64,000 bases of DNA, taken from the NCBI GenBank assembly GCA_030690265.1, contig JAUYHA010000177.1, positions 62,001-126,000 of the forward strand, in the 5' to 3' direction. Position numbers and translations under genes: made by a program. The stretch's first letter is position 1; each line of letters starts with the position of its first letter. This DNA is from Dehalococcoidales bacterium (GTDB lineage Bacteria; Chloroflexota; Dehalococcoidia; Dehalococcoidales; UBA2162). The notes below the pieces were generated by a model, which had not been told where the DNA came from, searched no databases, and worked only from the letters and a program-made list of their open reading frames with translations. This document shows positions 1,320 to 37,061 of this stretch, one piece after another.

Positions 1320-3185
1320 TTGATTCATTTATCACGTATGGGACTGCTCAAGAAAACTTTTATTTTTGTTGGGGCCGGGTTTGCGGCGCTGATGGCTCTT
1401 TTAACCTTTATTTCGCTGGATACCGTCAACCAGGGTATCGAAATTGCTTCACGGGAAAAGCTTGCCGTGGCGGAAAACATTGCTTCAAACATTGATGATA
1501 TCATACTGCACCTGCATTTTGAGACAGCTTATACCGCTTCGGTCCTGGGAAATAACTGGCAGAAAGTTGACGCTGAGTCAGACAGGAGTGAGCGTCTAGT
1601 CTCCTTAAGAAACCACCTGCTACGCCATATGGCTTCGTTCCGGCAAGTAGATGCGGTAGTATTCGTAGCCCTACTGGATAGCGGAGGGAATGTTCTGCAG
1701 ATGGAGCCTGCCCCTGAGCAGGGAATAGCACAATCTGTGGCTGCTGCTCCTGCTATTCAGCAAGTCTTAGCCGGTGATGAGGAATATATTGAAGTGGAGA
1801 AGGCAATTCTAACGGGTGATAGCCCGACCCTCTCAATGGTGGTCCCTGTTAAAGACGACCAGCAATTATTACAGGGAATGATAGTTGCTGATATTCCGGT
1901 CATTCCCGGTAACTTTGATTCCCTTCTCCAGCGGTGGGGAGCAGAGCACGACTTACAGGTTATCAGTGAAACCGGCACCATCGTGGCGAGTTCTCTGCGG
2001 ATAACGAACATCGGAGAAAGTGAGCACTGGAACCTGATAGGCCACCTGGCCCAGGAGCGAGCTGCGGGGATAGGGCAACACCCTGGAGATGAGGATACCA
2101 AAGCGCATATTGTCGCCTTTGCCCCTCTGGAATCTGTGCCCTGGGGTGTGGTCCTGGAGAAATCAACAGATGAACTCCTGGAATTGCCCTGGGCTATGGG
2201 CAGAAGACTGCTCGTAGTTGGCGGAGTGGCAATACTGGTAGCTGCCGGGCTGATATGGGGGTTTACCCGGCAGCTGATTAATCCGATACGCCGCCTGGCG
2301 GCCGTAGCTGAGAGCTTCGGGACCGGTAATCTGGAAGCCAAAATCCCGCCAATGCGGCAGGATGAAATAGGCGAGCTGGCTCAAAGTCTGGAAACCATGC
2401 GTTGTCAGCTTAAGCAATCAATCGATGAAACAAAGCAGTTGAATCTGGAACTTGAGCGGCGCGTCAAAAGACGAACTGCTCAGTTAGAAGAACTCTACGA
2501 GCAACTCAGGCTGAAGGACATGGAACGCGGTGAACTTCTGGGCAAGATTATCACCGTTCAGGAAGAAGAAAGACGGCGTATTGCTCGCGAGCTACATGAT
2601 GATATCAGCCAGACCCTCACCGGCCTGGTTATGAATCTGAGAAGCATCGAGAATCTCATTGCCAGCAACCCGGATACAGCCAGGAAAGAACTGGAGTCCT
2701 TGCGACACTCTGCTCGGGGAACCGTTGACAATGTGCGCCGCCTTATTCTGGACCTGCGCCCCAGTCTGCTTGATGACCTCGGCCTGGTGCCCGCCATCAG
2801 CTGGTACCTGGAAAACTATCTGGCTCCCGCCGGTGTGGAGGCAAAGCTGGAAGTTACCGGAACGGAGGAAAGACTCCCGGCAGCCACAGAGATAGCTCTA
2901 TTCAGAGTGGTGCAGGAAGCACTTACCAATATTGTCAAACATGCCCGGGCAAAAACAGCCCTTATTTGCCTGGAATTTGCCTCCTCCGCTATTGTAGGGG
3001 ATATTAAAGACGATGGAAAAGGTTTTAGTATGAGCCAGGTACGGCGAAATGGAGACGAAGGAATAGGCTTGCTGGGTATGGCTGAGCGTATTGAGCTTAT
3101 AAAAGGCAAGATAAAAATAGAATCTGAGCCGGAAAAAGGGACCCGTATTCACTTTGAAATCCCCAGGCAGGAGAATAGTGGCTAA
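1320..3185 (+). CDS. Membrane sensor histidine kinase with extracytoplasmic sensor and HAMP domain
   Basis: About 621 residues from a TTG start at 1320, chosen because GAGGAG lies seven bases upstream; ATG 1338 is the alternative. A longer open frame from 1179 would overlap the previous gene and is not credible. Order: transmembrane helix (about 10-33), a roughly 260-residue extracytoplasmic sensor region resembling dCACHE/CHASE-type modules, second transmembrane helix (about 297-315), HAMP, coiled coil rich in Glu/Arg/Leu, HisKA_3 with H-box RIARELHDD (His about 426), and HATPase_c with RVVQEALTNIVKHA and DDGKGF. It is a NarX/LiaS-class kinase. It overlaps the response regulator start by eight bases, so kinase and regulator are translationally coupled. 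Ligand unknown. Confidence 0.93.
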   Translation: MIHLSRMGLLKKTFIFVGAGFAALMALLTFISLDTVNQGIEIASREKLAVAENIASNIDDIILHLHFETAYTASVLGNNWQKVDAESDRSERLVSLRNHLLRHMASFRQVDAVVFVALLDSGGNVLQMEPAPEQGIAQSVAAAPAIQQVLAGDEEYIEVEKAILTGDSPTLSMVVPVKDDQQLLQGMIVADIPVIPGNFDSLLQRWGAEHDLQVISETGTIVASSLRITNIGESEHWNLIGHLAQERAAGIGQHPGDEDTKAHIVAFAPLESVPWGVVLEKSTDELLELPWAMGRRLLVVGGVAILVAAGLIWGFTRQLINPIRRLAAVAESFGTGNLEAKIPPMRQDEIGELAQSLETMRCQLKQSIDETKQLNLELERRVKRRTAQLEELYEQLRLKDMERGELLGKIITVQEEERRRIARELHDDISQTLTGLVMNLRSIENLIASNPDTARKELESLRHSARGTVDNVRRLILDLRPSLLDDLGLVPAISWYLENYLAPAGVEAKLEVTGTEERLPAATEIALFRVVQEALTNIVKHARAKTALICLEFASSAIVGDIKDDGKGFSMSQVRRNGDEGIGLLGMAERIELIKGKIKIESEPEKGTRIHFEIPRQENSG

Positions 3186-3849
3186 AAAGATTCGTGTTCT
3201 GATAATTGACGACCATACTATCGTCCGCACCGGCATCCGCCTTCTCTTAAACTCACAGCCCGATATGGAAGCAATAGGAGAAGCCGAGAATGGCAATAAA
3301 GGTCTGGCACTGGCTAAGGAACTCAGACCGGATGTTATTATTATGGATATTAATATGCCGGATATGGACGGTATCACCGCCACCCGGGTAATCAAGAAAG
3401 AACTACCTGAGGCGCGGATTCTGGCGCTAACCATGCACCGGGACAGCCGCTACTTTTTCCAGATGCTGAAAGAGGGTGCCCTCGGCTATGTGCTCAAAGA
3501 TGCCGAACCTGATGAGCTGTTGGACGCTATCAGAGCTGTCAACCAGGATAAAGCCTATCTGCTCCCCGATTTAGCCCGGCGACTGCTGGATGACTATCTG
3601 GACAGACTGAAAGCGGGAGATGAGCAGGATACTTACAATGAGCTGACAACCAGGGAAAAGGAGGTGCTCAAGCTCATCGGAGAAGGACGTACCAGCCGGG
3701 AGATTGGTGAAATGCTGTTTATCAGTTTAAATACTGTGGAACGCCACCGGAGTGCCATAATGGAAAAACTCGGCATGCATAACAAAGGTCAGCTGATTAG
3801 ATTTGCCCTTAGAAAAGGACTGGTTAAGATGGATAACGCGGATAGCTAG
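3178..3849 (+). CDS. NarL/FixJ-family response regulator
   Basis: 223 residues from GTG 3178, which has GGAG five to six bases upstream and gives the canonical N-terminus KKIRVLIIDDH. The receiver domain has the acidic pair at residues 11-12, phosphoacceptor Asp57 in IIMDINMPDMDG, and the conserved Lys near residue 107 (LKDAEP). The C-terminal LuxR helix-turn-helix (ELTTREKEVLKLIGEG to RHRSAIMEKL) binds DNA. It completes a kinase-kinase-regulator cluster and is followed by an intrinsic terminator, then by the decahaem cytochrome gene. Control of that cytochrome is a reasonable guess from position only. A link with the nar operon 54 kb away is also possible because the family is NarL, but nothing here proves it. 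Confidence 0.95.
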   Translation: MAKKIRVLIIDDHTIVRTGIRLLLNSQPDMEAIGEAENGNKGLALAKELRPDVIIMDINMPDMDGITATRVIKKELPEARILALTMHRDSRYFFQMLKEGALGYVLKDAEPDELLDAIRAVNQDKAYLLPDLARRLLDDYLDRLKAGDEQDTYNELTTREKEVLKLIGEGRTSREIGEMLFISLNTVERHRSAIMEKLGMHNKGQLIRFALRKGLVKMDNADS

Positions 3850-3873
3850 GGTAGTCCCCCTCTCACTAAATAT

Positions 3874-3909
3874 AAAAGCCACCAGAAAAAATGGTGTCTT
3901 TTCTTTTTG
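3874..3909 (+). terminator. Intrinsic terminator after the response regulator
   Basis: CACCA (3880-3884) pairs with TGGTG (3892-3896). The stem is extended by AAAAG/CTTTT on either side of one mismatch, and a T-rich run follows. It separates the signalling genes from the cytochrome gene. Confidence 0.65.
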
Positions 3910-3999
3910 AAAAATGGTATATTATCCATCAGGTATTCTTCTGTACTACGAAATAAACTGATAAAGGAGAGCATCGAGTTTGGAGAGGAAGAGTCTGTC

Positions 4000-6177
4000 A
4001 TGACAAATACCAAGAAACTAACATTTATGTTGTTGTTGGGTCTCAGCCTGGGATTATTGTTGCTTTCTGCCTGTCAGGGACCGACAGGACCGACAGGACC
4101 ACAAGGACCAGAAGGCTCACCAGCGCCAATACCACCCGGTGTCGGGCTTAAGTCTACAATCACCAAGGTGGAAATTGGGGCTGACCGTAAACCGATAGTT
4201 ACTTTCACCCTCACCGATGAGAAGGGGACACCCTTGAAGATATCTGACCTCGACGGCTATCCGAGCTTTACTCTCGCCTATATTAAGGAAGACCCCACCA
4301 GCAAGCTCACCCAGTATGTGTCCTATACCGTGGGGGATGTCAAAGGCGCTTCTTATACCTTTAAGGGTGCAGAAATTCAGCCAGTTCTAGCCGAGGTAAT
4401 AGGAAGACCCGGTTTTGACCCCCGGGCCACCACCCCGGCTTTCCCCGCCGACCACCCCGCTTTCAATGACCTGGGGAACGGCACCTTTACCTATATCTTC
4501 AGTACCGTCCTTCCGGGAGACTATGACCGGAATGCCACCCACCGGGTGGGGGGGCAATTCACCAGTGGCAGCCGCGCTTTTGTGGCTAATCCCACCTTAG
4601 ATTTTGTCCCCGCCGGAGGCGCGGTGAGTTTAACCCGCCAGGTAGTGACAAAGGAATCTTGCAACCAATGTCACGACCCCTTATCGGCACATGGCGGCTC
4701 GAGACAGGACCCGGCGCTATGTGTTACCTGCCACACCTCTCAGAATATTGACCCGGAAACCGGCAATACCCCCGAGTTCAAGGTGATGGTGCATAAGATT
4801 CACCGCGGCATCAATCTGCCCAGTGTTAAGGCTGGGGAGGACTATCGGATTGTCGGCTTCCGGCAGACTGTATTTGACTTCTCGAAAGTAGTCTTCCCCC
4901 AGTTCGGTGGCTCCAGTATCGGCGATGTCCGAAACTGCATCACCTGCCATGGCGCCCCTCCGGTAGGAATGACCGCAGAGGACTACGCCAGACTGGCACC
5001 CAACGCCGATAACTATAAGAATAACCCCAGTATTGCTGCCTGCGGCGCCTGCCATGAGAATATTGATTTTGCTACCGGTAAAGCCCGCTATGGCGGGATG
5101 AGAGACCATCCCGGCGGTCCTCAGGCTAACGATAGTGCCTGTAAGTCCTGCCATACTGCTGACTCCGGGAAAGAATTCGACGCTTCAGTGGTCGGTGCCC
5201 ATACCATTCCAGCCGAGTCAAATCAGCTCAAAGGACTGGACGTAGAGATTATCCGTGTTACCGGTACGTCTCCAGGACTGCAACCCCAGGTGGTCTTCAC
5301 CATGAAAGATAAGACCGGGAAGACAGTCCTGCCAGGGGAACTGACATCGATCGCTTTCAACCTGAAGGGACCCACCACCGACTATCTGGGTCCAGCGACG
5401 ACGGAGGCTGCTGACCTCACTAAAGTGGTCAGTAACGGCGAAGGTACCTATGCCTATACCCTCGCTACCGCCATTCCATCTGACGCCACCGGCACCTGGG
5501 CCATCGGGATGGAGGTACGTCGGATGGACACTACTATTATCGGGAATGAGGGGGCACCAATAAACGTGAGTGAAAGAAGCTATAACCCGGTGGCATATAT
5601 CCCAGTCACCGACAAAATAGCTATCCCCAGACGGCAGATAGTGGCAACCGAGAAGTGTAATGTCTGCCACAAGGAGATAGCCTTCCACGGCGGCGGACGG
5701 AAGAACACCGCCGAATACTGCCAGTTCTGCCATAACCCGGCGAATGTGGATGTCCCCGACCGTGTCCCTGAGAGGTTCGGCGGTCCTTACGATGTACCTC
5801 CGCAGTCAATTAACTTCCGCCTCATGATTCACCGTATTCATACCGGCGAGGAACTGACCCGCGACTTTACCATTTACCGCACCCGGGGCGTCTATAACTT
5901 CAATGAAGTTGAATTTCCCGGCGACCTGAGAAACTGCGCCAAGTGCCACGTTGGTACCTCCTACTTGCTGCCACTACCCGAAACCAATGCTAATACCCTG
6001 GCGCCGCGCGAGTTCTATTCGCCACTGGGACCAGCCGCCTCAGCCTGTCTGGGTTGCCACGATAGCCAGTCTGCCGCGGCTCACGCCTCCACTATGACCT
6101 CAGTTTTCGGCGAAGCTTGTGCCGCCTGCCACGGTCAGGGTCGTGATTTCGCTGTGGAGAAGGTGCACCAGCGCTAG
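4000..6177 (+). CDS. Decahaem c-type cytochrome lipoprotein, OmcA/MtrC family
   Basis: 725 residues from ATG 4000; the frame extends upstream, but the signal peptide begins here and a GAGAGGAAG stretch precedes it. It starts with a lipoprotein signal ending LLLLSAC (lipidated Cys25), followed by a short collagen-like GPTGPTGPQGPEG linker. Ten CXXCH haem sites are present: CNQCH, CVTCH, CITCH, CGACH, CKSCH, CNVCH, CQFCH, CAKCH, CLGCH and CAACH. They form two groups of five (about residues 221-390 and 555-710), each preceded by a beta-rich domain. This matches the beta/pentahaem/beta/pentahaem plan of the OmcA/MtrC decahaem family that passes electrons to extracellular metals or partners. No porin gene (MtrB type) is nearby, which suits a monoderm cell surface. 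It could also be an intermediate to other cytochromes. It is monocistronic or nearly so. Confidence 0.93.
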   Translation: MTNTKKLTFMLLLGLSLGLLLLSACQGPTGPTGPQGPEGSPAPIPPGVGLKSTITKVEIGADRKPIVTFTLTDEKGTPLKISDLDGYPSFTLAYIKEDPTSKLTQYVSYTVGDVKGASYTFKGAEIQPVLAEVIGRPGFDPRATTPAFPADHPAFNDLGNGTFTYIFSTVLPGDYDRNATHRVGGQFTSGSRAFVANPTLDFVPAGGAVSLTRQVVTKESCNQCHDPLSAHGGSRQDPALCVTCHTSQNIDPETGNTPEFKVMVHKIHRGINLPSVKAGEDYRIVGFRQTVFDFSKVVFPQFGGSSIGDVRNCITCHGAPPVGMTAEDYARLAPNADNYKNNPSIAACGACHENIDFATGKARYGGMRDHPGGPQANDSACKSCHTADSGKEFDASVVGAHTIPAESNQLKGLDVEIIRVTGTSPGLQPQVVFTMKDKTGKTVLPGELTSIAFNLKGPTTDYLGPATTEAADLTKVVSNGEGTYAYTLATAIPSDATGTWAIGMEVRRMDTTIIGNEGAPINVSERSYNPVAYIPVTDKIAIPRRQIVATEKCNVCHKEIAFHGGGRKNTAEYCQFCHNPANVDVPDRVPERFGGPYDVPPQSINFRLMIHRIHTGEELTRDFTIYRTRGVYNFNEVEFPGDLRNCAKCHVGTSYLLPLPETNANTLAPREFYSPLGPAASACLGCHDSQSAAAHASTMTSVFGEACAACHGQGRDFAVEKVHQR

Positions 6178-6589: not shown

Positions 6590-6769
6590 TCATGTCCTAT
6601 CTTGGCAGTATCCACAATCCTGCTCCACGCATAAGCCATCCCCGCAGTCAGGACGACAATAGGCGAACTGGTTATGCCCTGTCTTCTGCCTATGCCAGTT
6701 CGCCCCATGCGCGGTCAATTTCATCCTGGTTGTTTCCGGGCATATCATACATTGAAACACCATTTTCAA
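6590..6769 (-). CDS. Possible Cys-rich mini-protein (59 aa)
   Basis: A short frame reads from TTG 6769, with AAGGAGGG (6779-6786) nine bases upstream, to TGA 6590-6592. The product has six later-clustered or paired Cys plus one more: FQCMICPETT near the N-terminus, then AYCRPDCGDGLCVEQDCGYC at the C-terminus. These pairs look like metal-binding knuckles, as in zinc ribbons or rubredoxin-like folds. I do not recognise the family. A second frame on the same strand, ending AWGELA, also looks protein-like over part of the region, so frame choice is not certain. It stands alone between the cytochrome terminator and the end of the nuo operon. Confidence 0.4.
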   Translation of the reverse strand: MKMVFQCMICPETTRMKLTAHGANWHRQKTGHNQFAYCRPDCGDGLCVEQDCGYCQDRT

Positions 6770-6906
6770 TGGCTGAGACCCTCCTTAATGAATATAACAT
6801 AATGGGTACAGTATAAATCTACAGTTAAGGCTTTTTTCTGTCAAGAAACACGCACAAGTATAGTATATACGTACCTGATGCAGGCATAAAACTGCGCCAG
6901 GAGGGG

Positions 6907-8367
6907 TTAGGGCGTGAACAGGTTTGCCGCTATTTCGGCGAATCTGAGCAGGAAGTTCGGGGCAACACCAAGCAATAGTACCAGAAGGCAGGAGATTGCG
7001 ATGGCGACACCCAGCGCCGTTGAAGCCGGGGCGGTTGCTTCCAGTTTTGCCTCGTTTAGCCACATCACCTTCACTACCCTCAGATAGTAGTAAGCGGATA
7101 TGACGCTATTAATTACGGCTACGATGACAAGCCAGAGTAAATTATGCTGCACCGCGGCACTGAAAAGGTAAAACTTGGCTATAAAACCGGCCGTCGGCGG
7201 TATCCCGATTAGCGATATCAAACAGAATGACAGTGCCAGTGCCAGCAGGGGAGACTTTTTCCCCATACCAGCGTAGTCTTCTATATTGTCACTGCCTGTT
7301 TTTTCGGAAAGGCCAATCACGGCGAAAAACGCTCCAAGATTGGTAGCGGTATAAGCGGCCAGGAAAAATAACACGCCGCTCTGTCCCAGAATGTCAGTCT
7401 GTGCGGCAAATCCCATGGTGGCTAATCCCAGCATAATATAGCCCGCCTGGGCGACACTGGAATAGGCCAGCATACGCTTGATATTCGGCTGGGGTATTGC
7501 CCAGATATTACCCGCCGTCATACCTATCACTGCCAGGATGCCGAAAGCCATTCCCCATTCGTTACCTAGCCACACCGGCTGGCTGAACGCAGAGTAAAAT
7601 ATCCTCAAAACAATGGCAAAGCCGGCAGATTTGCTGGCGACAGACAAATAAGCCGTCACCGGTGTCGGGGCGCCCTCATATACATCTGGCGCCCACATCA
7701 GGAAAGGGAAAGCGGTAATCTTGAAACCCAGTCCCGTGATAATCAATACAATTCCCAGCAGTAGCCCGAAACCCCCTGTGCTACCGGCGGTGATATTATT
7801 TTGAATAGCAACGGCTATCTCACCCAGTTGCGTTGTTCCGGTGAACCCATAGATAAATATCATGCCGTACAAAAATATTGCCGAGGATATGGCGCCGAGT
7901 AAGAAGTATTTTAAGGCGGACTCGGTAGACTTTTGATTCTTCAGGAAACCCACCAGCGCGTACAGGGTAAGGCTGGTCAATTCCAGGGCTACGAACAGGA
8001 AGATAAGCTCTGTTGCGGATGCCATTAACATCATACCCAGTGTGGAAATAAGTACCAGCGCCGAATATTCACCTCTGAATTGAGCGAATTTTGAGGCGTA
8101 TTTAATAGAGGCGAGAATAACCAGCCCGGCAATACTTAGAAAGAGCAATTTGAAGAATAAAGCGAAGTGGTCTACCGCCAGCATATTGTTGAAGATTACC
8201 TGGTTGCTCTTTCCCCAGTAAGAGATGGTAAAGCCTCCGGCTACTACCAGCCCGGCCAGACTGATAAGGTTAAGCCCTTTTTTATCCTTGCTGAACAGGT
8301 TGAACAGGATTACGATTATAGCTCCGGCAAGAACACTGAGTTCCGGAATAATTAATCCGAGATTCAA
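6907..8367 (-). CDS. nuoN: NADH-quinone oxidoreductase-like subunit N
   Basis: 486 residues, about 14 transmembrane helices, with the Mrp-antiporter-type core: the conserved Glu of helix 5 (LFVALELTSLTLYAL), the Lys of the broken helix 7 region, and PNIKRMLAYSSVAQAGYIMLG. It is one of the three antiporter-like proton channels of complex I. It is the last gene of the nuo operon, 41 bases after nuoM. Length is typical (E. coli NuoN 485). No clear terminator follows. Confidence 0.96.
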   Translation of the reverse strand: MNLGLIIPELSVLAGAIIVILFNLFSKDKKGLNLISLAGLVVAGGFTISYWGKSNQVIFNNMLAVDHFALFFKLLFLSIAGLVILASIKYASKFAQFRGEYSALVLISTLGMMLMASATELIFLFVALELTSLTLYALVGFLKNQKSTESALKYFLLGAISSAIFLYGMIFIYGFTGTTQLGEIAVAIQNNITAGSTGGFGLLLGIVLIITGLGFKITAFPFLMWAPDVYEGAPTPVTAYLSVASKSAGFAIVLRIFYSAFSQPVWLGNEWGMAFGILAVIGMTAGNIWAIPQPNIKRMLAYSSVAQAGYIMLGLATMGFAAQTDILGQSGVLFFLAAYTATNLGAFFAVIGLSEKTGSDNIEDYAGMGKKSPLLALALSFCLISLIGIPPTAGFIAKFYLFSAAVQHNLLWLVIVAVINSVISAYYYLRVVKVMWLNEAKLEATAPASTALGVAIAISCLLVLLLGVAPNFLLRFAEIAANLFTP

Positions 8368-9926: not shown

Positions 9927-11912
9927 TTATCTCGGACTGAATATGAAAAAGCCCATAATCAGGGCCGCCATTCCAAGGCCAATGAATAAACCGTAAAACT
10001 GCAATTTCCCCGTCAGTACTTTACGGGTGACACTCCCGGTGACAAGGGTTATTTTCCCGGAAAGGTCTACCAGCCCATCCACCACTCTCCTGTCGAAAGT
10101 GGATAAATACTTGAAGAAATCGCGTACAATGTATCTCTGTACCAAAAGCGTGTTAACGCCACCGTCGATTATCTTACTATCAATAAAATGGCTCAAGGCA
10201 AAAAGACCGTTTAGTAAGACTTTCCTCACTATCAGGTTCTCATACAGCTCGTCAATCCAGTATTTGTGGTAGAACAGCTGATACAGCGGGGCAAACCTTT
10301 TCCCCATCGCCTCGGCTGATACCCATGAGGCACTGTACATCGCATAGGCAAGTAATATTCCCGCTCCGGCTAAGAGCAGGGAAATCCAGGGCAGAGGATG
10401 GGCGAAGATGCCGAATAGACCCTGGAGAAAGCCGTGGCTTTCTCCGTGTCCGAAGAAGGAGCTGAAACCGCCGGTAATGTTAAACCAGCCTGATGTTACT
10501 GCCAGCACCGCCAGTATCACCATCGGTATGACCATATTTGATGTCGATTCGTGCAGATGTTCCTCGCCCCGGTAGCTACCGCCGAATGTCTTGAATATCA
10601 CCCGGAACATATAGAACGCCGTCATAAAGACTGTTATCATCGCCAGGGTACCCAGTAGAGGTTGCTGCTCCAGGGCTATTGCTACAATCTCGTCCTTACT
10701 CCAGAATCCGGAAAGAGGCCAGATTCCGGCCAGGCTTAAACTACCAATCAGGAAGGTGCGGTAGGTCCAGGGCATCGCTTTACGCAGACCCCCCATTAGA
10801 TTCATATCGAATGTCTTGGTAGCGTGGTTTACACTGCCGGCACCCAGAAAGAGCAGTGCTTTGAAGAAAGCGTGATTGAACAGGTGGAAAATGCCGACAG
10901 CAACACCGCCTGTTGCCAGCCCGAGCATCATGTAGCCGAGCTGGCTGATGGTGGAATAGGCAAGCACTCTTTTAATATCGTTCTGGACCAGACCTATGGA
11001 TGCCGCAAAGATTGCCGTAACCCCGCCGACCACCGCCACCACTTGTAACGCCGTGGTGGAATGCTCAAAGAGGGGATAGGTGCGGGCAACCAGGAATACC
11101 CCCGCTGCTGCCATTGTTGCGGCATGAATCAGGGCACTGACCGGCGTCGGGCCCTCCATCGCATCCGGTAGCCATACATGCAGGGGGAACTGGGCTGATT
11201 TTCCTATGGCTCCGCTGAGAATACCGAGAGCTGCCCAGGTAAGCACCGTTCCGCCCAGAGCTCCGGCTACAGCCATCTGGAATAGTTCATTGAGGTTAAA
11301 GGTGCCGCCGTTAGCGAAGAGATATATTATTGCCAGCAAAAAGCCGAGGTCACCGAGACGGGTGACCAGGAAGGCTTTTTTCGCCGCATTGGCTGCGGCT
11401 GGCCTGTGGAACCAGAAACCAATCAGCAGGTAGGAGCACAAGCCGACCAGCTCCCAGAAGATGAACATAAGGAGCAGACTATCGGCCAGCACCAGGCCCA
11501 GCATGGCGGTTGTGAACAGAGACATGACAGCATAATAGCGGTGATAACCCGGGTCCCCGTGCATATAACCCTGGGAATATATCTGCACCATCAAGCTGAC
11601 TGTGTTGACCGCTAGCAGCATCACGCTGGTAAGAGCGTCTACCTTCAGCCCGAAGTGTATCCTCGCCGCCCCTTCTATGATTATCCAGTTGAAATCCGGG
11701 GCAGTTATTTCGTGGTGCGGCGCACCTAACACTTTTATCAATGTGACGAGAGACAATATCAGAGAGACGGATACGGCGGTGATGGTCACATAACCGGCCA
11801 GTTTTGGCTGGTTCTTGAAGAATGGTTTTAGTAAAAATGATATTACCAGGAAGGAAAGCAGCGGTGTTAAAAATATAAGCCAGATGAACTGATTCTGCAT
11901 TACTCCTACCAT
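9927..11912 (-). CDS. nuoL: NADH-quinone oxidoreductase-like subunit L
   Basis: 661 residues, the distal antiporter-like subunit with a C-terminal lateral helix. Motifs: FIFWELVGLCSYLLIGFWF (helix 5 Glu), SAQFPLHVWLPDAMEGPTPV and QNDIKRVLAYSTISQLGYM. Length is near the usual 610-660. The N-terminus could be MVGVM or MQNQF four residues in; the longer start overlaps nuoK by seven bases. Confidence 0.97.
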   Translation of the reverse strand: MVGVMQNQFIWLIFLTPLLSFLVISFLLKPFFKNQPKLAGYVTITAVSVSLILSLVTLIKVLGAPHHEITAPDFNWIIIEGAARIHFGLKVDALTSVMLLAVNTVSLMVQIYSQGYMHGDPGYHRYYAVMSLFTTAMLGLVLADSLLLMFIFWELVGLCSYLLIGFWFHRPAAANAAKKAFLVTRLGDLGFLLAIIYLFANGGTFNLNELFQMAVAGALGGTVLTWAALGILSGAIGKSAQFPLHVWLPDAMEGPTPVSALIHAATMAAAGVFLVARTYPLFEHSTTALQVVAVVGGVTAIFAASIGLVQNDIKRVLAYSTISQLGYMMLGLATGGVAVGIFHLFNHAFFKALLFLGAGSVNHATKTFDMNLMGGLRKAMPWTYRTFLIGSLSLAGIWPLSGFWSKDEIVAIALEQQPLLGTLAMITVFMTAFYMFRVIFKTFGGSYRGEEHLHESTSNMVIPMVILAVLAVTSGWFNITGGFSSFFGHGESHGFLQGLFGIFAHPLPWISLLLAGAGILLAYAMYSASWVSAEAMGKRFAPLYQLFYHKYWIDELYENLIVRKVLLNGLFALSHFIDSKIIDGGVNTLLVQRYIVRDFFKYLSTFDRRVVDGLVDLSGKITLVTGSVTRKVLTGKLQFYGLFIGLGMAALIMGFFIFSPR

Positions 11913-32653: not shown

Positions 32654-34495
32654 CTATTCCACTATGAAATCTCCCGTTATAAACGTTGGATGAGTATCAC
32701 ACCGGAAAAAGTAGGTACCTGGAGTTAATGGTGCCGTAAACTCGTAAGTTATGGTGTTCGGCCCGTTAATGACCTGCCCTACGAATATCTCCTCCACGCC
32801 TGAGGATGTCATGTAAACGGCAAAATTGTGGGGTATGCCGTCATCCTGATTATCAAAATTGATGGTTACCTCAGCTCCTGCCTGGACGGTGATTGTGCTC
32901 AAGTTGAAATCCAGGTTGACGGCGACAAGGTCAATGGTACCGCCCGCTGCTTCGCCGCCTTCAGAGGCCGCAGTGGCTACCGGGCAGTTTACCAGGATAT
33001 CGGTCTCCGTTATATCATAACCGGAGGCTGTGACATTGTCGGCTGATGTGAATGTATTGGCTACGTAATCCTCAGGCACTGTTACAAGATTAACTCTCCA
33101 GAAAGCCGAATACCCTTCGTCTCCGGGCAGGACATCGATGATATTCTGCTGCCCATCAACGAACTGAGGATTTCCCTCGGAATCCATGCCGGTAATCAGT
33201 GCATAGATTGGAGCAGCGGAATCAGGATTTTCCCCGAAATCAAAGTAGTAGACTGCCTCACCTTTATACCAGCCCTGGACCAAATCCTCGCCTGTCTCGA
33301 GGACAGAGTTAGCCGGTACAATGGGACAGTTGACCAGAATATCGGTCGCAGCAATCTCAAAGTTTTCGGCCATGAGCTCGCTGACGGAACGGATTGAGTC
33401 CGCTTCATAGTCTTCAGGCACTGTTACCAGATTGACCTGCCAGAGGTCGCTATATCCGTCGTCACCAGGGATGACATCAACGATGTTGTGCTGACCTTCA
33501 ACAAATTGAGGATTGCCTTCGCTGTCCATACCACTGATAAGAGCGTATATCGGTGCAGTTAGCACTCTGTCATCGACCAGCGTGGTATTCGCTCCGAAAT
33601 CATAGTATTGTACCTGGCTCCCCCGGTACCAGCCAGAAACCAGAGAATAAAGATTTTCCTCAACAGTAACGTCAGCAGTATCAGTCACCGGAGGGTCGAG
33701 AGGGGTGTGGTCATTGTTCACCAGTTGAACACCGGCGGTATGATTTCCCGAGCTAACCCCTTTCCAGGTGTAAGTAGTATTGGCAGAAACGACATAGGTG
33801 CCTGGCTCTGAGACAGCCGGCTCGCCAGGCGTGGTTGGGATTTCCGTATCAAGGTAGAAATGAAGGTGTCCTTCTCCTGAAACTGCCGGGTCACTAAGAT
33901 TATCCGCCAGATTGAAATTTGACACCGTAGCAGTGACTTCAATCTGGTCTCCGGAAACCGACGTAGATATTGTGACATCAGGGGTTGTGACGTTTTCGGT
34001 GACGGGTGGTTCTTCAGTGACGGGTGGTTCTTCAATGACGGATGGTTCTCCAGATACTACAGTGACAGTGACTTCATCCGTAACGGGCGGCTCAAGCGGG
34101 GTGTGGTCACTGTTCACAAGCTGAATCGAAAAGGTGTGTATGCCGGCCGTGACGCCGGTCCATGTATAAGACATCGCCGTGGTAGCGGCATAGGTGCCTG
34201 ATTCGGTGACCGCCGGTTCTCCCGGTGTGGTGGGTGGGTCAACATCCATATAATAATGGATGTGGCCTTCGCCGGATAGCGCCGATTCCCCTAGCTTATC
34301 AACAACGTCAAAGTTGGCAACGTCAACGCTGACAGTAACGTCACCCTCATCAATCTCAGCCCCATCCGATGGTGAAGATATGGTGATAGTCGGCTCTGTT
34401 GTTGGAGCTGCCGTACAGGCGAACAACCCCATCAGACTGACAAGTAATATGGCAGTCGCCATCAGTTGGTTCATTCTTATCAATCTCTTCTTCAT
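32654..34495 (-). CDS. Multidomain lipoprotein with C-terminal cupredoxin
   Basis: 613 residues from ATG 34495 (AAGGAGG upstream). Lipoprotein signal ends GLFAC. Domains: two copies of a roughly 110-residue module with GEGH(I/L)H(Y/F)Y.D and the ending NDHTPL(E/D)PPVTD, resembling DUF4399. Then come two copies of a roughly 105-residue module with PIYALI(S/T)GMDSEGNPQFV and DILVNCP. Last is a cupredoxin of about 95 residues. Its copper ligands are His in PHNFAVY and Cys and His in FRCDTHP. The residue four after that His, usually the axial Met, is Ile (HPTFITG). It is surface-anchored and could be a high-potential electron carrier or copper binder. Acidic, Thr-rich linkers join the modules. 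Confidence 0.85.
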   Translation of the reverse strand: MKKRLIRMNQLMATAILLVSLMGLFACTAAPTTEPTITISSPSDGAEIDEGDVTVSVDVANFDVVDKLGESALSGEGHIHYYMDVDPPTTPGEPAVTESGTYAATTAMSYTWTGVTAGIHTFSIQLVNSDHTPLEPPVTDEVTVTVVSGEPSVIEEPPVTEEPPVTENVTTPDVTISTSVSGDQIEVTATVSNFNLADNLSDPAVSGEGHLHFYLDTEIPTTPGEPAVSEPGTYVVSANTTYTWKGVSSGNHTAGVQLVNNDHTPLDPPVTDTADVTVEENLYSLVSGWYRGSQVQYYDFGANTTLVDDRVLTAPIYALISGMDSEGNPQFVEGQHNIVDVIPGDDGYSDLWQVNLVTVPEDYEADSIRSVSELMAENFEIAATDILVNCPIVPANSVLETGEDLVQGWYKGEAVYYFDFGENPDSAAPIYALITGMDSEGNPQFVDGQQNIIDVLPGDEGYSAFWRVNLVTVPEDYVANTFTSADNVTASGYDITETDILVNCPVATAASEGGEAAGGTIDLVAVNLDFNLSTITVQAGAEVTINFDNQDDGIPHNFAVYMTSSGVEEIFVGQVINGPNTITYEFTAPLTPGTYFFRCDTHPTFITGDFIVE

Positions 34496-34724: not shown

Positions 34725-37061
34725 TCAGGTGTCCGAGACCAGGCGGCTAAGGGCTGATTTATCCTTTTCCTCCCTCTTTCCCTTTCCTTTTCCGCTGCCT
34801 CCTCCTTCCTTCTTCTCATCGCCTTCTTTCGAATCGGCTGGAGATACCTCTGCTGACTTCTCATCAGAAGGAATGACAGATTCATCAGGAGGACTGGAAG
34901 GGGTTACTGCGACGGTGCTAACGTTAACAATCCCACCTCCACCTGCCTGAACTCTGATACTTTTCAATCTAGTCTGAGCGGCCAGGGTCAAGGCCGGGTC
35001 ATCAGACAGTTCAATAGCCCTTTCATAATCGGCGATTGCCAGATTCGTCCTGCGCGAAGACAGGTAAATATTACCTCGGGCGATATAGTACCATCCATTG
35101 AGAGGACTTATTTCAATCGCCCTGTTGATTTCAATCAGAGCCTGGTCATATTGTTCCTTGTCGCTGTAGATTGAAGCCCAGCTGAAAAAGGCCGCTGAGT
35201 TCAGCGGGTCAATCTGGATGGCAGCATCCAGGTCATCCAGAGCCAGGGTGAGTTGGTTTTTACTCCGGTAAGCGCCACTCCGTCTGATATACGCCCAGAC
35301 ATTGGAGCTGTTTATTTCTATAACCCTGGTCAAATCGGCTATCGCCCGGTCATATTCCTTCAATTCAAGGTAGACCGCAGCCCTGCCGTAGTATCCTGAC
35401 TCACTCTCAGGTTTAAGCTGTATTGTTTTGTCGAAGTCGGCTAGTGCCGGTTGTAGCGCCCCGGCAGAAATATAAGCGTACCCCCTGACAATGTATGTTG
35501 AAGGCTCTTCAGGGTTCAGCTTAATCGCTCTGGTAAAGTCCGCAATAGCATCTCTGTACAGTTTCTGCCCGACGCGTATCCTGCCCCGGGCGATATACAG
35601 CCTGGCTTCTTCAGGACTCAAAGCAAAGGCTTTTTCTATAGCCTTCAACGCCAGGTCATATTTTTGTAAATCAATATAGATTGTGGTCGTATCGTAATAG
35701 GCATCGGAGCTGGCGGGGTCAAGCTGAACGGCGGTATCCAGGTCAGCGAGGGCCAGGACAGTCGAACCTATAGCCTGATAGGCGCTGCTGCGCCTGAGAT
35801 ACGCCGAAACATTTTGATTATTTAGCTCTATTACCCTGGTCAAATCGGCTATCGCCCAGTTATATTCCTTCAACTCAAGATATGCTACAGCCCTGCCGTA
35901 GTATCCTGACTCACTCTCAGGTTCAAGCTGTATTGATTTGCTGAAGTCGGCGACAGCCAGGTCAGGCGTTCTTCCAGATATATAGGCGTAGCCGCGGGCG
36001 TTTAAAGCGGTCGCATTCTCAGGGTCAAGCCGGAGGGCGGTATCCAGGTCGGACAGGGCAAGGGCAAACTGGGCTCGGTTTCGGTAAGCGCTGCTTCGTC
36101 TTATATACGCCTCGACATTGGAGCTGTTTATTTCTATAACCCTGGTCAAATCGGCTATCGCCCAGTCATATTCCTTCAACTCAAGATATGCTACAGCCCT
36201 GCCGTAGTATCCTGACTCACTCTCAGGTTTAAGCTGTATTGTTTTGTCGAAGTCAGCGACCGCTAGCTCCGGCGCTCCGCTGGAAATATAAGCGTAACCC
36301 CTGCTGTAGTATATTGCAGCCTCCGCAGGGTTTAGTTCGATTGCCCTGGAGAAGTCTGTAATTGCTTTATCGTATTGTTTCTGCCTGATGTAAACCTGGC
36401 CCCTGAGATAAGTAATCTCCCCGTCTTTGGGCTCAAGTTCAATAATGCGGCTATAATCAGAGATTGCCCGTTCAGTCAACCCCTCAGCCAGATAGAGGTC
36501 ACCCCTGCTCCTGTAAAATGAGCCATTGGCAGGTTCCAATCCGATGGCTCCGGTAAAATCGCTTATTGCCTTATCATATTCTTTTTGTTCAACATATATT
36601 GAAGCTCGGGTAGAATATAGAGAGGCATCAGACAGCCCCAGTTCGATAGCCTTACTGAAGTCAGCGAGAGCCTTTTCCCGCTCGTTACTCATCAGAAAAG
36701 CCAGCCCGCGGTTGTAATAGGCCGGTGCACTTTCCGGGTCCAGCTCAATGGCTTTACTCAGGTCATCTGTCGCCTGTTCGGGCCGCCACATTTTGAGATA
36801 AGCCATTCCGCGGCCGTAATAAGCTCTGAATGACCCGGGGTCGTAACGGATGGCTTGCGTGTAATCAGAGACGGCATAGCTGTAATATTTATCCTGGTAA
36901 TGTTCATCGCCAATTGAGATGTAATCCGCGGCAAGTCCGTTACAACCGATTGCCGCAAACGCAAGTATTAAAACCATGCCCGAAATAAACAGGTTCAGGC
37001 TGTTCTTTGTGAAAAAGAGCCGCCATTGTAAAAAGAATACGCGCCTCAACCTACTTGCCAT
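34725..37061 (-). CDS. Membrane- or surface-anchored TPR protein with about 19 repeats
   Basis: 778 residues. One hydrophobic N-terminal segment (LFISGMVLILAFAAIGC) may be a lipoprotein signal with Cys40 or a membrane anchor. Residues about 50-710 are a run of 34-residue TPRs, with typical W/Y-x2-LG/A-Y and P-x4-AY.. positions (for example DKAITDFSRAIELNPAEAAIYYSRG split between repeats). A charged Lys/Glu/Gly tail ends the protein. It should form a superhelical scaffold for protein contacts. Some repeats are nearly identical in DNA, showing recent internal duplication. No partner is evident; the cupredoxin lipoprotein lies downstream on the same strand. Confidence 0.88.
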   Translation of the reverse strand: MASRLRRVFFLQWRLFFTKNSLNLFISGMVLILAFAAIGCNGLAADYISIGDEHYQDKYYSYAVSDYTQAIRYDPGSFRAYYGRGMAYLKMWRPEQATDDLSKAIELDPESAPAYYNRGLAFLMSNEREKALADFSKAIELGLSDASLYSTRASIYVEQKEYDKAISDFTGAIGLEPANGSFYRSRGDLYLAEGLTERAISDYSRIIELEPKDGEITYLRGQVYIRQKQYDKAITDFSRAIELNPAEAAIYYSRGYAYISSGAPELAVADFDKTIQLKPESESGYYGRAVAYLELKEYDWAIADLTRVIEINSSNVEAYIRRSSAYRNRAQFALALSDLDTALRLDPENATALNARGYAYISGRTPDLAVADFSKSIQLEPESESGYYGRAVAYLELKEYNWAIADLTRVIELNNQNVSAYLRRSSAYQAIGSTVLALADLDTAVQLDPASSDAYYDTTTIYIDLQKYDLALKAIEKAFALSPEEARLYIARGRIRVGQKLYRDAIADFTRAIKLNPEEPSTYIVRGYAYISAGALQPALADFDKTIQLKPESESGYYGRAAVYLELKEYDRAIADLTRVIEINSSNVWAYIRRSGAYRSKNQLTLALDDLDAAIQIDPLNSAAFFSWASIYSDKEQYDQALIEINRAIEISPLNGWYYIARGNIYLSSRRTNLAIADYERAIELSDDPALTLAAQTRLKSIRVQAGGGGIVNVSTVAVTPSSPPDESVIPSDEKSAEVSPADSKEGDEKKEGGGSGKGKGKREEKDKSALSRLVSDT

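Follow-up and report, generated by a model that had tools for sequence, protein, structure and literature searches.

The window, a 64,000-nucleotide stretch of contig JAUYHA010000177.1 (positions 62,001 to 126,000), encodes on its reverse strand what looks, from its sequence, like an exported lipoprotein of 613 amino acids, in whose C-terminal cupredoxin domain isoleucine (Ile606) takes the place of the axial methionine. The equatorial ligand set of a type 1 copper site is complete (His556, Cys599 and His602), Ile606 lies four residues past the last His, and wherever the axial column could be read among the matches listed, in 107 of 107 other unique domains, it is Met. The preliminary description, which had proposed a His-Cys-His site with Ile for the axial Met, is thereby confirmed. 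On balance, the protein is probably an extracellular electron carrier with a type 1 copper site, anchored in the membrane and tuned to high potential; we infer its copper binding, the raised potential, a stalk role for its N-terminal modules and a redox partner. The gene and its parts are given below in window coordinates.

32654..34495, minus strand: lipoprotein gene, 613 amino acids, with signal peptide, two DUF4399 modules, two DUF7482 modules and cupredoxin (open reading frame, Pfam, AGGAGG)
34415..34495, minus strand: putative signal peptide to Cys27, residues 1-27, lipobox-like GLFAC (by eye; helix 3-23 in the model)
34052..34402, minus strand: DUF4399 module 1, residues 32-148, immunoglobulin/fibronectin type III (Ig/FnIII)-like, with GHIHYY and DHTPL histidines (Pfam, phmmer, model, fold match)
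33653..33991, minus strand: DUF4399 module 2, residues 169-281 (Pfam, phmmer, pairwise identity)
33311..33652, minus strand: DUF7482 module 1, residues 282-395 (Pfam, phmmer)
32972..33310, minus strand: DUF7482 module 2, residues 396-508 (Pfam, phmmer)
32657..32965, minus strand: cupredoxin domain, residues 511-613 (Pfam, own profile, model, fold match)
32828..32830, minus strand: His556, first copper ligand (alignment; His in 109/109 other domains)
32699..32701, minus strand: Cys599, copper ligand (alignment)
32690..32692, minus strand: His602, copper ligand (alignment)
32678..32680, minus strand: Ile606, codon ATA, axial position (alignment; Met in all readable relatives)

Conservation of the copper site

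A cupredoxin profile built from 11 domains was searched against the genomes of the order (19 of 156 matched at 1e-10), the class (74 of 393 at 1e-12) and the phylum (29 of 281 at 1e-15), three sets which overlap; the class survey covers the matches listed, comprising the given loci and 60 further stretches, with the weaker tail left out. The first alignment held 124 matches, or 110 unique domains once identical sequences were dropped. Aside from the 107 with His-Cys-His-Met, these comprise the window protein, locus L080, which has Tyr for the second His and a gap at the axial column, and one domain cut by a contig end. A wider alignment (177 matches, or 147 domains after dropping sequences contained in another) includes 138 His-Cys-His-Met domains, the window protein, which alone has Ile at the axial place, and eight others that are cut short, have an altered second His or belong to a different cupredoxin type (e.g. 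L158, L178 and L186). Sixteen columns are conserved in at least 80% of the other domains, and because the window protein keeps 15 of them, the axial Met being its sole departure, the domain does not look decayed and Ile606 would represent a pointed change within an otherwise normal domain. The closest relative of this domain is that of L033 (66% identity over 93 positions).

A search of the 393 class genomes with the motif CDxHPxxIxG yielded seven matches, namely the window protein and six non-cupredoxin frames; the latter, which are short or unrelated and reach at most 4.9 bits with the cupredoxin profile, were rejected as further Ile cupredoxins. Among viral contigs, 46 stretches fitted a pattern and none was confirmed.

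Expected effect on the redox potential

Replacement of azurin Met121 by Leu, Ile or Val raises the potential by 100-140 mV (PMC12071310), rusticyanin M148L reaches 798 mV, compared with 667 mV before the change (PMC11881046), and the reverse exchange L499M lowers that of Botrytis aclada laccase by 140 mV (PMC4220974). A natural Leu replacement likewise raises the potential in ceruloplasmin (PMC4059628). The earlier claim that a non-coordinating axial residue raises the potential of other blue copper proteins is thus supported for azurin, rusticyanin and the laccases. On the other face of the copper plane, three-domain laccases also contain a conserved Ile (PMC4220974), at a different position from that of Ile606. 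By analogy, we infer a raised potential for the window protein, and as a natural variant of a known protein type it should, judging from the mutants of similar proteins, be the stronger electron acceptor. A literature search by title, with most subscription journals outside its scope, returned no natural single-domain cupredoxin with an axial Ile, and no paper joining M295I with the terms axial and type 1 copper.

Predicted structure

The full-length model, calculated from a three-row alignment (window, L003 and L004), has a mean predicted local distance difference test (pLDDT) score of 60.5, with block means of 63-88 for residues 521-613 and of 31-55 for the DUF7482 part. The C-terminal domain is modelled with a cupredoxin fold, for which the best match of residues 517-613 is auracyanin A (2aan; Z 13.3, root-mean-square deviation (rmsd) 1.8, 96 aligned, 31% identity), followed by other auracyanins, EfeO, Cupredoxin_1 domains and rusticyanin. 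The matches include two engineered proteins, rusticyanin M148L (1gy2; Z 11.0, rmsd 2.3, 97 aligned) and Ssl1 M295I (6y4a; Z 10.3, rmsd 1.9, 90 aligned).

A single DUF4399 module was modelled confidently (pLDDT 83.5) as an FnIII/Ig-like sandwich resembling the FnIII-like modules of CbhA (Z 10.5, rmsd 1.9, 84 aligned) and chicken sulfite oxidase (Z 9.2, rmsd 2.9, 94 aligned); this shared fold shows no function. A relationship with CopC was considered and rejected: apo-CopC appeared at a Foldseek E-value of 8.7e-3 and rank 48, behind the FnIII-like and sulfite oxidase matches, and CopC was not among the best 50 structural matches of the DUF4399 model.

Domain architecture and predicted export

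Pfam places Cupredoxin_1 (PF13473) in residues 513-612 (40.1 bits against a cut-off of 27, 4.1e-10), two stretches of DUF4399 (PF14347; 43.2 bits against 28, 5.2e-11) and two of DUF7482 (PF24298; 40.6 bits against 27.5, 3.2e-10), the best of the latter spanning just positions 49-111 of the 257 in the profile. The four repeated modules of two kinds noted previously are thus two DUF4399 and two DUF7482 domains, the former pair being 53% and the latter 60% identical within the protein. Only one cupredoxin stretch exceeds the Pfam cut-off across the whole 613 amino acids. An AGGAGG Shine-Dalgarno sequence lies a short way before the start codon, and a scan for promoters and terminators gave a result near chance level. 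The protein is read as a putative lipoprotein because its N-terminal hydrophobic stretch ends, by eye, at Cys27, and the proposed export agrees with the signal peptide so recognised. The phenylalanine at position -2 is not what lipoboxes most often have there.

Fusion partners were read at the given loci and, among the 60 further class stretches, in the flanks of L080 (via L215). Proteins in which this cupredoxin comes after one, two or three DUF4399 modules occur in L003 (a Dehalococcoidia metagenome-assembled genome, MAG), L004 (a MAG of the archaeon Methanosaeta), L006, L007, L039, L044 and L053, and in a second paralogue of genome G199. The seven proteins other than the paralogue share DUF4399 and the same cupredoxin with the window protein but have the axial Met in 7/7 and are without DUF7482 in the phmmer scan. 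The G199 paralogues (G199:C233; L215/L080) are adjoining proteins of 589 and 595 amino acids, each with three DUF4399 modules and a cupredoxin, one with a full site (CDVHPAM) and the 595-amino acid one with CDVYPTM, where Tyr stands for the second His. DUF7482 pairs form separate proteins in other families of the class; those of L139-L144, each with two modules, share 52-62% identity with the window pair, and the frames of L139-L143, unlike the window protein, are by eye without cupredoxin or DUF4399. A DUF7482 match at 1e-5 was found in 12 of the 393 class genomes, the window's own among them; the window's genome was not among the matches of a looser genome search for DUF7482 at 1e-5. The order DUF4399-DUF4399-DUF7482-DUF7482-cupredoxin was seen in the window only, among the loci read. 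The architecture, described before as unrecognised, is therefore familiar in part, given that both repeats are named Pfam domains and the DUF4399-cupredoxin combination recurs, and differs only in the inserted DUF7482 pair, which was not seen elsewhere among the loci read.

Across 28 DUF4399 modules the histidines are well kept (GH in 28/28, the second His of GHxH in 27, HTF in 26 and DHTPL in 26), suggesting a possible role in metal binding or docking. The literature search found no paper mentioning DUF7482 and three that mention DUF4399, none of them, by title, on its function.

Redox setting and proposed function

The clade of the window cupredoxin includes domains fused to COX2 (L032, L035 and L069) and to a pyrroloquinoline quinone (PQQ) propeller (L048), and that of L065, of the same clade, is fused to a cytochrome domain scored only weakly (27.7 bits, cut-off 27). 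In L032, L035 and L069, cytochrome c oxidase subunit II carries the extra cupredoxin at its C-terminus, perhaps as a built-in electron donor. The window's genome encodes COX1 (464 bits) and an adjoining CoxII frame with, by eye, a CuA motif. Given the COX2 and PQQ fusions and these oxidase genes, electron transfer to or from an oxidase chain is our best guess at the function.

In the mechanism we propose, copper would be held in plane by His556, Cys599 and His602 of an auracyanin-like cupredoxin, and Ile606 would stand in for the weakly bound axial Met without coordinating the metal. Cu(I) would then be favoured, so that the potential would lie roughly 100 mV above that of the Met relatives. 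The four N-terminal modules would serve as a stalk keeping the copper domain off the membrane, and the DUF4399 modules may, via their kept histidines, dock a partner or also bind metal. Electrons would probably pass to or from a terminal oxidase chain.

Alternative explanations

Several points weigh against a high-potential carrier. The sequence comes from one MAG (2.44 Mb, 196 contigs, 91.7% complete, 7.3% contamination), there is no second genome of the genus among the relatives listed, and the quality of the full-length model is poor except in its cupredoxin and DUF4399 parts. Among the window genes scanned with Pfam there is no adjoining redox gene. An axial Ala or Phe raises the potential of the Thermus thermophilus laccase by just 50-60 mV, and its non-coordinating variants have a lower Cu2+ population (PMC6487685).

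An unlikely alternative is that Ile606 arose as a consensus error or marks a variant strain, the species normally having Met and an ordinary auracyanin-like carrier. In its favour, ATA is one transition away from ATG, which also counts against the carrier, and a single assembly departs here from an otherwise invariant Met column. However, the reading frame is unbroken, the axial column is the only strongly conserved one to differ, and ATA is not an odd codon, since it accounts for 179 of the 663 Ile codons across 20 genes.

Rather unlikely, too, is a copper site in the course of being lost or repurposed, to store copper, to bind a different metal or to serve as a structural domain, with Ile as an early step. 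The Tyr of the 595-amino acid G199 paralogue shows that the copper site of a DUF4399-cupredoxin protein can be altered, and L233 has Thr for the second His, but the window protein keeps the three strong ligands together with the 15 conserved columns. We regard as doubtful a more far-reaching interpretation, in which a lineage with a changing copper site (Ile here, Tyr in G199), an Ile-tuned high potential and DUF4399 histidines (GHxH, HTF and DHTPL) acting as extra metal sites would together make a multi-metal surface electron relay. Finally, another axial group (Met562, a backbone oxygen or water), leaving the potential unraised, is most improbable: Met562, the sole other Met of the domain, six residues past His556, was considered as a possible substitute and rejected on sequence grounds, as 97 of 109 relatives have T, D, E, R, Q, K or N in its column, which is polar and variable as for a surface position.

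Neighbouring genes and other cupredoxins

Neighbouring genes encode an OpuAC transporter, a Usp protein, a C39-like peptidase and a TPR protein (Pfam), with small heat-shock-like and cobalamin genes recognised by eye. The next gene upstream (34725-37061) codes for a 778-amino acid TPR-repeat protein with, by eye, a hydrophobic N-terminus.

Contig G000:C109 (L213) of the same genome, which could be contamination, encodes a 516-amino acid protein (9993-11543) with, by eye, two cupredoxin-like parts, the first ending in CPLHPEIIGK, with Ile in the Met place of CxxHPxM, and the second in CTVHPYMKG. A 156-amino acid cupredoxin (6650-7123; PF13473, 49.7 bits) is encoded on this contig, close to a gene resembling that for cytochrome bd subunit I, and ends in CTLGDHEARGAKGK, with Ala, by eye, at the Met place of G-M-K-G. 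PCP_red domains (proto-chlorophyllide reductase tail) fused to a radical SAM protein and to a universal stress protein are also encoded there (383-1582 and 2985-4172). The amicyanin-like domains of L186, L197, L200, L207 and L211 (G001, G006 and G035) have, by eye, Gln for Met (e.g. CAFHDGQSG), recalling stellacyanin, and are mostly found in long frames that contain another copy.

Comparison with known systems

What is known of axial tuning in blue copper proteins comes mostly from mutagenesis, and the window protein would be a natural case in a clade with otherwise invariant Met. An Ile606/Ile606Met pair would show whether evolution turns the same knob as engineers, while the potential of the protein would reveal the working potential of the electron chain in these uncultured bacteria.

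The window domain shares its fold and His-Cys-His ligands with auracyanin, a blue copper carrier found in Chloroflexus and Roseiflexus, which belong to the same phylum as the window bacterium if its placement by relatives (L003) is right. L003, the best named match in the genome scan, makes an uncultured member of the Dehalococcoidia the likely source of the window. Auracyanin is not known to have DUF4399 or DUF7482 modules. The axial residue of auracyanin is Met (PMC3150298), in contrast to Ile606, which sets the window domain apart from it. A hydrophobic axial residue is instead shared with azurin carrying Ile, Leu or Val for Met121, rusticyanin M148L, Ssl1 M295I and the fungal laccases. The azurin, rusticyanin and Ssl1 variants are, however, laboratory mutants, and the fungal laccases are multicopper oxidases whose domains accompany a trinuclear site, whereas the window protein carries its axial Ile naturally and in a single copper domain.
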